From Candidatus Accumulibacter contiguus (lineage in GTDB: Bacteria > Pseudomonadota > Gammaproteobacteria > Burkholderiales > Rhodocyclaceae), in NCBI RefSeq assembly GCF_012940005.1, contig NZ_SPMX01000020.1, positions 1-55,641 on the forward strand: 55,641 bases of DNA. The letters are read 5' to 3'. A program made the position numbers and the translations under genes. Each line of letters opens with the position of its first letter. Position 1 is the first letter of the stretch. The notes under the pieces are model-generated. The model worked only from the letters and a program-made list of their open reading frames with translations, ran no database searches and was not told where the DNA came from. Of this stretch, positions 36,022 to 39,761 are shown piece after piece.

Positions 36022-39000
36022 TTACTGGGGCAAAAGCGGCGGGCAGTCCGTCCGCCCGTAATGCGCGCGGAAGGTGCGCAGGTCGGTACCGTCCACATCA
36101 CCATCCTGGTCGAAGTCAGCGGCGTCGTTGTACCGGACTTGACCCCTCCGCGAGCCGTAGGCCGCATTAAAGATGCCCAAATCCGTCGCGTCCACATCGC
36201 CATCACCGTCGAAGTCGCCCTTGCACGGTGGGACCGGCTGAATGATCAGGAAGGCGCTGCTCTGATCATCTTCGCTGACTACGCCATTGCCCGGGGTCGA
36301 ATCTGGATCGGGTTGATTCGCGGCCGCTACCTGAGCGATATTCTCAATCGATCCGGTGGCGGTCACCATAGCGGTGATCTGCAAGGTGGCGCTGCTGCCA
36401 TTGGTGATAGTCCCCAGTTGCCACAGACCGCTGCCTGAGTTGTAGCTCCCAGAGGAAGGCGTGGCAGAGACGAAGCTCAGGCTGGCGGGCAGCAGATCCA
36501 GGACTTGCACGCCGGTGGCGGCTTGAGGACCCGCGTTGCTCACCGTGATGGTGAAGCTGACGTTGCTGCCCAGGGTGGGAGTTGGGTTGTTCACCGTCAT
36601 GGCCAGACTGAGGTCAGCCCGGTCGATGGCGTTGGCCAGGTTGAGCCGCCCTCCGGTGACCGTGATCCCTGCCAGTGCCGGTATACGATCCGCGCTGCGC
36701 AGGATGCGATTGATGCGGTCCGGCATTGGCTCGTCATGAAGACCGGCCAGGAAGCCTACCGCGCCGGTTACATGAGGCGCGGCCATGGAGGTACCACTCA
36801 GGAAGGAATAGCCATTCGTGCCCTCGGGTACACCGATCCCGATGTCGTCCAGGTATACGCCGTCGGCAGTAACGGAAGAGTCAGTGTTCAAGACGAACAT
36901 CACCTGGAACGGGTTGGTGTAGAACGCCGGGTCGATCGGCGCGGTGTACAGCCGCCACTGGCCTTCGCTGCTGCCGGTGAGGCCGCCTACATAATAAATA
37001 CCTCCATAGTTGTACACCATCCAACCGTTCTGGCCGTTCTCCATGTTGTCGGAGAAGTAGGTCGTGGTGAAACTACCATCCGTTACGGCCACGTCGTCGA
37101 TGTAGTAACCGTCGTAGGTGATGCTGGAGTCCGTCACCAGATCGAAGGCAAACTTGGCGTCCGCGGTCCGGCAGGCATCGGGGACCGGTGCGGAAAACAG
37201 GGTCCAGTTAGCGACTAAGCCGTCCAGGTAACCAAGGTAGGTCCATACACCACTCCCATAACAGAATACGCGCAGTTCGTCAAAACCGCTTTCGATTTCG
37301 CCCCTCAGAGAGAAGGTCATCCAGGTATTCCCTGACGGCGCCACGGACAGATTCATCGTCGGGCTTTCCAGGGCGACGTAAGCGTTGTTGACATAGTTCC
37401 CATTGGGGCTGTCGGACCAGGCGTGGGTGGGGCTCTGGGACTGTTCCTCCGTCAGCGTCCACTGTGGTGATGATCCACCCATGACGTAATAGACATCCAG
37501 CCAGTCGGAGCCATATTCCAGGTCGTGTCGGGCATAGAAGCCCAGGGACAGCGGCCCCGACACGCCGCTCAGGTTAATCGGCGGACTGGTGAGCGCAACG
37601 GACTGGTTGTCGCTGTAGTTGCCGCCGGGGCTGTCGGACCAGGCGTGGGTCGGACTCTGGGACTGCTCCCCGGTGATGGACCACGGTGATGCCGCCGTCC
37701 AGCCACCGGATCCTGCTTCCATGCCGTCGAAGAAGGAGTCGCCCGGTCTGGGCCAATACTGAGTCCACCAGAAGGTGTTGAGGATCGAGTCCCCAGGCGC
37801 GCCCAGGTCCACCGAGTTCCGGCCGTAGTTGGAGAACCCGGCCAGCGCGTCATTGTGATTGGTGGCGGCCACGCTGATGATGTTGGGCAGGTCGTGGCTT
37901 GACGGGTAGTGGGGATCAATGTCGTTGTTTACAGCGTCGTTCCCCGCCGCCGCGACGAAAATGATCCCAGCATCGCCCAGAGCGCCAATGGCTGTCTTCT
38001 CGACCTCGTTATAGCAGCCAGTGCAGCCATAGGAAGCATTGACCGCCACCACGTTCACGCCGCGCTGCTTCATCATCAGGATGTATTGCAAGGCCTCCAA
38101 TTCAGCATCATCGTACAGATAACCGTCAGGCGAGAAGCCTTGGATCGCCATGATCTGGCCCGTCCAGTTGACTCCGGCTACTCCCTGGCCGTTGTTTCCC
38201 GCCGCCGCCATGATGCCGGCCACATGGGTGCCGTGGCCGTGGCCAACCGGGTAGGGGTCACTGTCGCCCATACCGGTATCGATGCCATGGATGTCGTCCA
38301 CATAGCCGTTGCCGTCGTCATCGATACCGTTGCCGGGTATCTCCCCCGGATTAACCCACATGTTGGCTTGCAGGTCCGGGTGGGTATAATCTACGCCGGT
38401 GTCCAGCACGGCCATGACGACACCGCTGGAGCCGGTGTGGTGAGCCCAGGCCTCGGTGGCGTCGATGTCTGCATCGACCACCCCGCCGGTTTGCCCGTAG
38501 TTGCACAGCGACCACTGACTACCATCGAAGTAGGGGTCATTCGGGGGGGTGCCCGGGCATCCCGCGGTGGGCCGCTTGCCATAGTTAAAGGAAGCCGCCT
38601 GCACGCGCGAATCGGCTTTCATCCGGGTCAGAAGCGCTGCAGTTGTCATCCCTTTGGGCCCCCGCGCCAGGGCGAAAACCTGGCCGGTCATGCTGGAAAG
38701 GCTGTCGAAGCTTTTGGCCAGGGTCAAGCCGTTGGTGCTCATCGCTTGGCTGGCCGTGGCTGCGTTAACCCCCTTCTTGAAGAGAAGCAGGATTTCGCCC
38801 TCCTTGTAATGAGCCTTGCGCGGCGCCGCCTGGCCCTTGGGGAGGAGAGAGGATTTTCCCGCCGCTGGAGCCCCCTTGGCAGAGGGCAGGATCGGTCCCG
38901 GGACGGTCAGGATACGCTCCCCTTGCGCGTTGGGCGCTACATCGATGCGTGGCAACACACTGCGCGTTGCCGGTATGGGTAGCGGCTTCTTGACGGGAAC

Positions 39001-39141
39001 CTGCGCCCGTTTCTGCAATGGAATGGCTCCGGCCGGTGGAGCGGCTTGCAGGCCAACGACCGGCAGCATACCCAGTACAGCCCCGACGGCCAAGGCGTTG
39101 CCGCAGGACTGCATGCGCTTGATACTCTTGATCCGCTTCAT
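36022..39141 (-). CDS. Secreted subtilase (S8) with inserted beta-sandwich repeats, DUF11 domain and C-terminal dockerin
   Basis: 1039 residues. Signal peptide to about 33, a Pro/Ala-rich linker, then an inhibitor-like prodomain (YKEGEILLLFKKGVN, 112-126). The S8 domain has Asp247 (AVLDTGVDYTHPDL), His303 (GHGHGTHVAGIMAA), Asn401 (VAAAGND) and Ser785 (SGTSMAAPHVTG). Between Asn and Ser about 330 residues are inserted (455-775), holding two similar copies around EEQSQSPTHAWSDSPNGNY and a third related sandwich. A DUF11-type domain follows (845-965). Residues 974-1030 form a dockerin: two calcium loops, DFDGDGDVDATD and DFDQDGDVDGTD, each followed by a helix ending in YG, flanked by Cys973 and Cys1033. 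The start overlaps the upstream cohesin-like gene by ATGA, so the two are coupled and probably bind each other. Confidence 0.92.
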   Translation of the reverse strand: MKRIKSIKRMQSCGNALAVGAVLGMLPVVGLQAAPPAGAIPLQKRAQVPVKKPLPIPATRSVLPRIDVAPNAQGERILTVPGPILPSAKGAPAAGKSSLLPKGQAAPRKAHYKEGEILLLFKKGVNAATASQAMSTNGLTLAKSFDSLSSMTGQVFALARGPKGMTTAALLTRMKADSRVQAASFNYGKRPTAGCPGTPPNDPYFDGSQWSLCNYGQTGGVVDADIDATEAWAHHTGSSGVVMAVLDTGVDYTHPDLQANMWVNPGEIPGNGIDDDGNGYVDDIHGIDTGMGDSDPYPVGHGHGTHVAGIMAAAGNNGQGVAGVNWTGQIMAIQGFSPDGYLYDDAELEALQYILMMKQRGVNVVAVNASYGCTGCYNEVEKTAIGALGDAGIIFVAAAGNDAVNNDIDPHYPSSHDLPNIISVAATNHNDALAGFSNYGRNSVDLGAPGDSILNTFWWTQYWPRPGDSFFDGMEAGSGGWTAASPWSITGEQSQSPTHAWSDSPGGNYSDNQSVALTSPPINLSGVSGPLSLGFYARHDLEYGSDWLDVYYVMGGSSPQWTLTEEQSQSPTHAWSDSPNGNYVNNAYVALESPTMNLSVAPSGNTWMTFSLRGEIESGFDELRVFCYGSGVWTYLGYLDGLVANWTLFSAPVPDACRTADAKFAFDLVTDSSITYDGYYIDDVAVTDGSFTTTYFSDNMENGQNGWMVYNYGGIYYVGGLTGSSEGQWRLYTAPIDPAFYTNPFQVMFVLNTDSSVTADGVYLDDIGIGVPEGTNGYSFLSGTSMAAPHVTGAVGFLAGLHDEPMPDRINRILRSADRIPALAGITVTGGRLNLANAIDRADLSLAMTVNNPTPTLGSNVSFTITVSNAGPQAATGVQVLDLLPASLSFVSATPSSGSYNSGSGLWQLGTITNGSSATLQITAMVTATGSIENIAQVAAANQPDPDSTPGNGVVSEDDQSSAFLIIQPVPPCKGDFDGDGDVDATDLGIFNAAYGSRRGQVRYNDAADFDQDGDVDGTDLRTFRAHYGRTDCPPLLPQ

Positions 39142-39761
39142 GATCTCTTCTCCTCATCGATCAGCTTCATTCTGCTCCTCGACGCCAGCAGCGCGACCAG
39201 ACCGGGCGCCAATAATGCGAGGGTGCCTGGGAGAGGTATCAAGTTGGGAGTGTTGACTTGGGCCAGGACGATACCGCTCGCGAGATCGTCATCCAGGACG
39301 GTGCCGTTCTCGAGAACAAAGTCGTCGAAGAACCCTCCACGGTCGCTGTCATAGAGCGACAGCGTGCTCATCCCATAGGCGCTACTCGTGAACTCCACGC
39401 TTGCGAGCAGAATGCGATCCCCTGCTAACGGTGGGAATGACACTTGTCCTCCCCCGGCTTCTACCTCCGGAGCCGTGCTGTTCACCCACCCTAACTCCCA
39501 GATCGACGCCACACTGGCGCTCGCTACCTGCAGGTGGGAAAGGTTATAAACCAGATCAAACCCCATGGAGATCAGACCGGGATTCGGGACGTTAGAGACG
39601 TAAAGATCCGCCCGAATGGTGTCATTCAGAGCGAGATTCCAGCTTGTCTCGTAGTTTCCGTCCTGGCCAAAGTCCAGATTGAAGACCAACTTTCCCGATG
39701 CCGGACCAGAGATGCCCAATAACAGGGCCGCTATCGGTGCGATCAGCTTTATTTTCTTCAT
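39138..39761 (-). CDS. Secreted cohesin-like domain protein with PEP-CTERM (VPLPA-type) sorting tail
   Basis: 207 residues. Signal peptide MKKIKLIAPIAALLLGISGP and on to about residue 23. Residues 24-170 look like a cohesin domain: LNDTIRADLYVSNVP, then SMGFDLVYNLSHLQVASASV, DRILLASVEFTSSAYGMSTL and LASGIVLAQVN. The C-terminus IPLPGTLALLAPGLVALLAS followed by RSR is a PEP-CTERM/VPLPA-like signal: proline motif, membrane helix and basic residues, here with a 12-residue tail. Such proteins are processed by exosortases and linked to the cell surface or matrix. GAGGGG lies 6 bases before the ATG at 39761; the upstream open frame is not used. The stop overlaps the start of the dockerin-bearing protease gene. 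The cohesin call is from pattern memory and needs a profile search. Confidence 0.78.
   Translation of the reverse strand: MKKIKLIAPIAALLLGISGPASGKLVFNLDFGQDGNYETSWNLALNDTIRADLYVSNVPNPGLISMGFDLVYNLSHLQVASASVASIWELGWVNSTAPEVEAGGGQVSFPPLAGDRILLASVEFTSSAYGMSTLSLYDSDRGGFFDDFVLENGTVLDDDLASGIVLAQVNTPNLIPLPGTLALLAPGLVALLASRSRMKLIDEEKRS

Follow-up and report, generated by a model that had tools for sequence, protein, structure and literature searches.

A small cohesin-like protein with an exosortase-type signal, encoded next to a dockerin-bearing subtilase: a putative docking pair in Candidatus Accumulibacter contiguus

In a 55,641-nucleotide stretch of the Candidatus Accumulibacter contiguus genome (contig NZ_SPMX01000020.1, positions 1 to 55,641; hereafter the window), two overlapping genes encode a small secreted protein that combines a cohesin-like domain with an exosortase-type C-terminal signal (P0001) and a secreted S8 protease ending in a dockerin (P0002). 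The arrangement recurs: dockerin frames directly adjoin 35 of 43 small, signal-bearing cohesin loci, and both gene orders occur. We consider it probable that P0001 is an exosortase-processed, cargo-dedicated cohesin receptor, which would keep a single dockerin-tagged exoenzyme on the cell surface or within the matrix; the binding, its calcium dependence and the final location of the pair are here deduced from sequence. Throughout, G, C and L denote genomes, contigs and fetched stretches (loci), respectively.

Recurrence of the cohesin–dockerin gene pairing

We collected loci by cohesin-only searches of 200 relatives (using PF00963 and A2, which contains P0001 itself), 369 genomes of the class (using A1, an alignment of 11 cohesin domains from PEP-CTERM proteins with a cohesin match gathered from the relatives) and 398 genomes of the phylum (using A2). 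The fetched stretches were centred on small-frame cohesin matches, and the dockerin played no part in finding the loci. A locus was counted when, as judged by eye, a motif with proline, a hydrophobic segment and basic residues came after the small cohesin frame, and it was scored as adjacent when a same-strand dockerin frame overlapped it or lay at a gap of no more than 141 bp, with frames measured from stop to stop. Since Pfam alone misses divergent cohesins (those of G004, G021, G135 and others were found only via A2) as well as half of the scanned partner dockerins, we built local profiles. The dockerin profile, dk.hmm, has 18 seeds that include the window’s own dockerin and others of the pairs, and the window’s score of 54.9 bits against it is therefore not independent.

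The resulting 43 loci include the window and two near-identical tandem copies in G032. An earlier note on this DNA had said that homologues with the two genes always apart would speak against a functional pair; the search of relatives gave the opposite, with adjacency also seen in 12 of 14 loci first found in the class draw and in 7/7 of those from the phylum draw. Pro-x-Pro is present in most tails but absent from those of L132, L145 and L213; L090 and L091 continue past the tail, and the tail of L196 was read under the handle L095. Before the count we excluded seven small cohesin frames that lack a sorting signal (those in L146, L147 and L148 and four in L142). Also excluded were G165 (L092) and G005 (L094), which by eye are secretion-system-like parts, G125:C9 (L103), which has the signal but is not an A2 match, G018:C4 (L198), which scores 13.3 bits by co2 (a profile built from 25 cohesin domains of related PEP-CTERM proteins, without P0001), and three contig-end frames that were left unread (G009:C127, G001:C3 and G021:C57).

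By two comparisons, a dockerin neighbour is predicted by the combination of PEP-CTERM tail and cohesin, and by neither of them on its own. In a matched control, with profiles and E-values identical to those of the 43-locus count, we scanned 40 stretches (≤10 kb) covering the first 42 PEP-CTERM matches listed, together with those around 20 of 39 cohesin matches of secretin size (frames of 646–970 amino acids, similar in length to the L001 secretin; the class is set by frame size). No dockerin was found in any of the 40 PEP-CTERM stretches or the 20 secretin-size stretches, and a cohesin was detected in none of the former and 13 of the latter. The second comparison, made by hand, asked for a PF00404 match (E ≤ 0.01) at a distance of no more than 4 kb: this was seen for 11 of the relatives’ 22 signal-bearing loci and for 1 of 150 among the PEP-CTERM matches listed (G024:C32). 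None of the 39 secretin-size cohesin matches of the relatives search has one within 5 kb.

These counts bear on a reading in which the two proteins are co-secreted and do not bind each other: the cohesin-like domain would attach to matrix sugars, the dockerin would serve as a calcium-stabilised tail, and the genes would be neighbours through shared work in the matrix. The cohesin fold is related to carbohydrate-binding modules, and the same genome has other dockerins, one of which (on C77) has as its neighbour a PEP-CTERM gene in which no cohesin was detected. However, generic co-secretion predicts many PEP-CTERM–dockerin neighbours, as opposed to the 0/40, and 1/150 among the matches listed, that we see next to 35/43 with a cohesin; furthermore, the cohesin and the dockerin are retained while the cargo domains change. 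We regard co-secretion without binding as improbable.

By Pfam scans of 32 dockerin-bearing partners (31 of the 35 adjacent ones and that of L133), these proteins come from unrelated families; Dockerin_1 is listed in 16 of the 32, at thresholds of E 10, 0.1 or 0.001. S8 proteases are the partners in the window and in L135 of G508, the latter being the second S8–dockerin protein found beside a PEP-CTERM cohesin. Other peptidases are a reprolysin-like metalloprotease in L087 (dockerin 42.7 bits; its cohesin scores 56.7 bits and its PEP-CTERM signal 29.1 bits) and an M9 collagenase in L212. Further enzymes include amidases in L085 (by Pfam) and L086 (judged by likeness), a GDSL lipase in L189, a glucuronyl esterase with CBM9 in L211, a glucose/sorbosone dehydrogenase in L134, a purple acid phosphatase in L193, and endonuclease I and/or endonuclease/exonuclease/phosphatase proteins with a lamin-tail domain in L144, L210, L213, L214 and L215. 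The remainder comprises an RHS/PASTA protein (L131), an IgGFc-binding protein (L141), NHL and other propeller-like proteins, and PKD/Ig-repeat proteins. The arrangement extends further than the earlier note had supposed, with many cargoes other than proteases and with pairs from several families within the class.

The two genes of the window and their genome

The P0001 gene occupies 39138..39761 on the minus strand (207 amino acids, stop included in the coordinates), with its ATG at 39761 preceded by GAGGGG, and the P0002 gene occupies 36022..39141 on the same strand (1039 amino acids, stop included). They overlap in an ATGA at 39138..39141 that joins the TGA stop of P0001 to the ATG start of P0002; coordinates, strand and overlap are confirmed. 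All features given below lie on the minus strand.

P0001 starts with a signal peptide (39693..39761, about residues 1–23, boundary estimated by eye), followed by the cohesin-like domain (39291..39653, residues 37–157 by profile envelope) and the C-terminal sorting signal (39159..39236, residues 176–201), in which IPLPG precedes a hydrophobic stretch, RSR and a short charged tail. Without its tail, the domain scores 30.4 bits against co2, with the best of 2000 shuffles (1943 of them with a reported score) reaching 16.9 bits and the next 9.8. Because this score is well above the shuffles, P0001 is, by sequence homology, best described as a divergent member of the PEP-CTERM cohesin family and not as a PF00963 match above cut-off. 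Alignment A1 of the relatives’ domains retrieves solved cohesins, the best being 1g1k (E 4.3e-8); the 21 chains matched at E ≤ 0.022 are 15 scaffoldin, cohesin or cellulosome-anchoring chains, four of NagJ and two titled ‘Endoglucanase’, and the next match is an antibody at E 0.094. A solved-structure search with the P0001 sequence alone gave no match. The tail, IPLPGTLALLAPGLVALLASRSR, is a PLP variant of a PEP-CTERM-type signal. The earlier note’s exosortase-type signal holds up in its resemblance to the tails of 32 relatives (29.8 bits against their profile, shuffles at most 12.0), but not as a PF07589 or TIGR02595 match, the P0001 tail not being listed by either even at E 10.

That P0002 is an S8 protease ending in a two-loop dockerin, as the earlier note had it, is borne out. 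PF00082 matches with 137.9 bits in two stretches separated by an insert, the first at 37774..38427 (residues 239–456); the insert contains an InhA-MAM-like stretch (residues 663–708; PF20773 25.6 bits, below the cut-off of 26.9). The motifs VLDTGVD, GHGTHVAG and SGTSMAAPH are all present; we take D247, H303 and N401 to be S8 motif residues, and the serine motif SGTS (S785, from 36798 downwards) lies beyond the insert. A DUF11 domain (36295..36615, residues 843–949; PF01345 117.9 bits) separates the protease from the type I-like dockerin with its two calcium-type loops (36052..36222; Pfam residues 974–1021, second helix to about 1030). The dockerin scores 27.0 bits with Dockerin_1 (PF00404), above the cut-off of 22.9, and 32.2 bits in the genome search, and with phmmer it finds solved dockerins, best 2y3n_B (E 6e-6). 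It is flanked by Cys973 and by a cysteine six residues before the last residue. Its two loops are 12 residues each, with Asp at what we presume to be the calcium positions in both; the two 21-residue loop-helix stretches are identical at 15/21 positions, and the region contains an internal DNA repeat (36056-36117 / 36155-36216).

Between 35700 and 40900, promoter-like sites (4 vs an expected 1.8, none on the strand that carries the genes) and terminator-like sites (3 vs 3.9 expected) yielded nothing usable, and no foreign composition signature was found over the two genes, where the content of G plus C is about 0.58–0.63, falling to 0.52 upstream.

The genome matches the exosortase profile PF09721 twice, on C40 (251.4 bits) and C102 (102.7 bits); PEP-CTERM matches at E ≤ 0.01 number 32. 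Its four Dockerin_1 matches are on C53 (the window), C77, C19 and C133. The only PF00963 match at E ≤ 0.001 is on C115, and A2 retrieves only this protein and P0001 itself. The C115 protein (L001:1429-3291, minus strand) is secretin-like, carries a cohesin domain (37.1 bits) at its end and is encoded beside pseudopilin-like genes; it is counted among the 39 secretin-size cohesin matches above.

The dockerin genes of C19 and C133 are near-identical (96.8% over 628 bases), and both have PEP-CTERM cohesin remnants upstream. In C19 (L109:4331-4951, plus strand) part of the domain’s second half and the tail are left (31.2 bits, profile positions 128–198), and in C133 (L106:6694-7113, plus strand) there is only a tail-like piece, beside what by eye are transposase- and AbrB-PIN toxin-antitoxin-like genes. 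G004 has complete pairs with dockerin genes related to those of C19 and C133. On C77, a dockerin-bearing propeller-like protein (L003:1456-3105, minus strand), by eye of the same kind as the PEP-CTERM cohesin partners in L089, L093 and L139, is encoded next to a PEP-CTERM protein (L003:669-1400, minus strand) in which no cohesin is detectable, and in G024:C32 a dockerin match likewise neighbours a PEP-CTERM match; these PEP-CTERM neighbours are possibly a second kind of docking partner. Giant frames of 2,129 to 14,708 amino acids in L198 (G018:C4), G016:C1, G009:C44 and other same-genus cases have cohesin and dockerin matches on the same polypeptide, a hint of docking within the protein or in chains. 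Finally, in G151 (L090:5426-6373, plus strand; L091:3-956, minus strand) the reading frame of a PEP-CTERM cohesin stays open and continues into another signal peptide and a VWA-like beginning, where both contigs break off in near-identical protein sequence.

A proposed docking module and its alternatives

In the mechanism that we propose, both proteins would be exported via their signal peptides (recognised by eye), P0001 would fold as a cohesin, and an exosortase would recognise its tail. By analogy with the PEP-CTERM/EpsH model (accessible part of PMC1569441), the exosortase would then cut the tail and release or transfer the cohesin to the outer surface or the exopolysaccharide. The P0002 dockerin, shaped by two calcium ions, would plug into this cohesin, giving one protease per dedicated receptor, and the overlapping genes would yield matched amounts of the two proteins. 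The same receptor-plus-plug plan appears, as a gene arrangement, to be reused with different exoenzymes in related bacteria. With somewhat less confidence than for the window’s own pair, we favour the view that this is a general enzyme-display system in the bacterial class, each small PEP-CTERM cohesin acting as a dedicated socket for one dockerin-tagged exoenzyme, be it a protease, nuclease, esterase, phosphatase or other, which it would tie to the surface or to the biofilm matrix. The minimal docking pair with an exosortase-type signal put forward in the earlier note is supported as far as the pairing goes; the cohesin is below the Pfam cut-off, and the cargo of such pairs reaches beyond proteases.

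The chief rival to surface display is escort followed by release. Here the cohesin, as long as its tail still anchors it in the inner membrane, would collect the exoenzyme in the periplasm and keep it inactive or guide it to its export route, and exosortase cleavage would free the complex or the enzyme to the medium, with no lasting display. The pairing data (35/43 adjacent) would be the same, and one receptor per cargo with ATGA-coupled genes fits this scheme as well. We know of no such export chaperone. PEP-CTERM processing has been proposed to cut a membrane anchor (accessible part of PMC1569441), which fixes no final place for the protein and which escort could accommodate; in cellulosomes, by contrast, cohesin–dockerin pairs hold enzymes outside the cell (accessible part of PMC12484212). 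We consider escort and release unlikely, though a better candidate than co-secretion without binding.

Several observations weigh against the docking module with surface or matrix display that we prefer. The cohesin-like domain is weaker than the earlier note implied: its homology is carried by the relatives’ profile, but PF00963 gives P0001 14.9 bits (E 0.032, residues 102–149 of an extended 263-residue frame) against a cut-off of 24.1, and this weak cohesin match is the only domain in its Pfam scan. The cohesin fold is a nine-stranded jelly-roll; the single-sequence AlphaFold model of P0001, with a mean predicted local distance difference test score of 32.5, is too low in confidence to show a fold. 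The docking itself is read from sequence, which also suits co-secretion without binding. P0001 matched 2 of the 200 genomes at E ≤ 0.001, its own included, and the exact pair was not found in the 199 other relatives; the other matches, on its own C96 (residues 157–199) and in G023 (113–197), cover the tail or the C-terminal half. With P0002 at E ≤ 1e-30, the 199 other relatives gave one partial S8 match (G142). A contig scan gave no match with P0001 and 16 loci with P0002, 8 titled Shewanella and 1 Parashewanella, which we did not use further.

Other points concern the family of pairs. The three other dockerins of the window’s genome have no complete PEP-CTERM cohesin alongside. In L133 and L187 one gene, itself PEP-CTERM-like, separates cohesin from dockerin; the adjoining frame of L197 (the same place as L096) has a weak dockerin (18.7-19.6 bits) missed at the count settings; no dockerin was detected in the adjoining frame of L097 or in the 13.5 kb fetched for L140; and L090, L091 and L196, which are contig ends, are not among the adjacent loci. 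Only 12 of the 32 scanned partners pass the Pfam dockerin cut-off, the remaining dockerins resting on the local profile and visible two-loop motifs. Cohesin and dockerin distances correlate across 34 pairs (r 0.58, reached by none of 5000 permutations, also within search sets), which fits co-evolution but may also reflect shared descent.

The sub-threshold PF00963 score and the lack of close relatives of the pair are also what one would expect if a weak beta-sandwich resemblance and an EF-hand-like repeat had become adjacent by chance in one genome. Such a coincidence is highly improbable because the arrangement recurs, being repeated in 34 other loci; the P0001 profile score also stands well above 2000 shuffles.

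Relation to cellulosomes and to PEP-CTERM sorting

A cellulosome consists of a multi-cohesin scaffoldin, a cellulose-binding module and glycoside hydrolase cargo. In the window, the Pfam scan of P0001 gives a single weak cohesin match and nothing else, and the cargo is a protease. The closest likeness is with a type I case in Clostridium thermocellum, where, in the accessible part of PMC12484212, the dockerin is likewise on a secreted S8 protease and the cohesin partner is proposed as the surface anchor: the protease, which has a double dockerin, prefers the cohesin of cell-bound ScaD. The solved chains 8x39/8x3a, titled ‘Serine protease’ and matched by the P0002 dockerin, may be this C. thermocellum module. 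C. thermocellum is Gram-positive, with multi-cohesin scaffoldins and a double dockerin, whereas here a single cohesin is part of a small protein with an exosortase-type signal, is encoded beside one partner and has a cargo that across the loci is mostly non-cellulolytic.

Cohesins and dockerins outside cellulosomes have been described before: the accessible part of PMC5244752, citing 2009 work, states that their function is not known. In the same part, which deals with methanotrophic archaea, exosortase signals and cohesin/dockerin domains are discussed apart from each other, a role in cell contact is offered only as a guess for the latter, and an exosortase-signal cohesin paired with a cargo gene is not mentioned. 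The P0001 tail and the genome’s exosortase genes resemble PEP-CTERM/EpsH sorting as given in the accessible part of PMC1569441 (C-terminal Pro-x-Pro, hydrophobic stretch, basic residues), with the difference that the sorted protein would here be the receptor for a second exoprotein; the words cohesin and dockerin occur 0 times in the main text of that paper. The earlier note’s statement that such a system is not described agrees with our literature searches within the accessible papers: an exosortase-signal cohesin paired with dockerin cargo was described in none of the literature searched, which included few subscription papers, and an earlier notice in the 2009 review of non-cellulosomal modules is possible.

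The gene pair joins two puzzles, non-cellulosomal cohesins and dockerins on the one hand and PEP-CTERM proteins on the other, and makes both directly testable. Most PEP-CTERM proteins have, to our knowledge, no known role. If the docking module is as we propose, it would parallel the cellulosome in a one-socket, one-plug form, give an entire class of PEP-CTERM proteins a molecular role and supply dozens of natural plug–socket pairs usable also as tools, and it would give these bacteria a modular means of holding secreted enzymes in their matrix.

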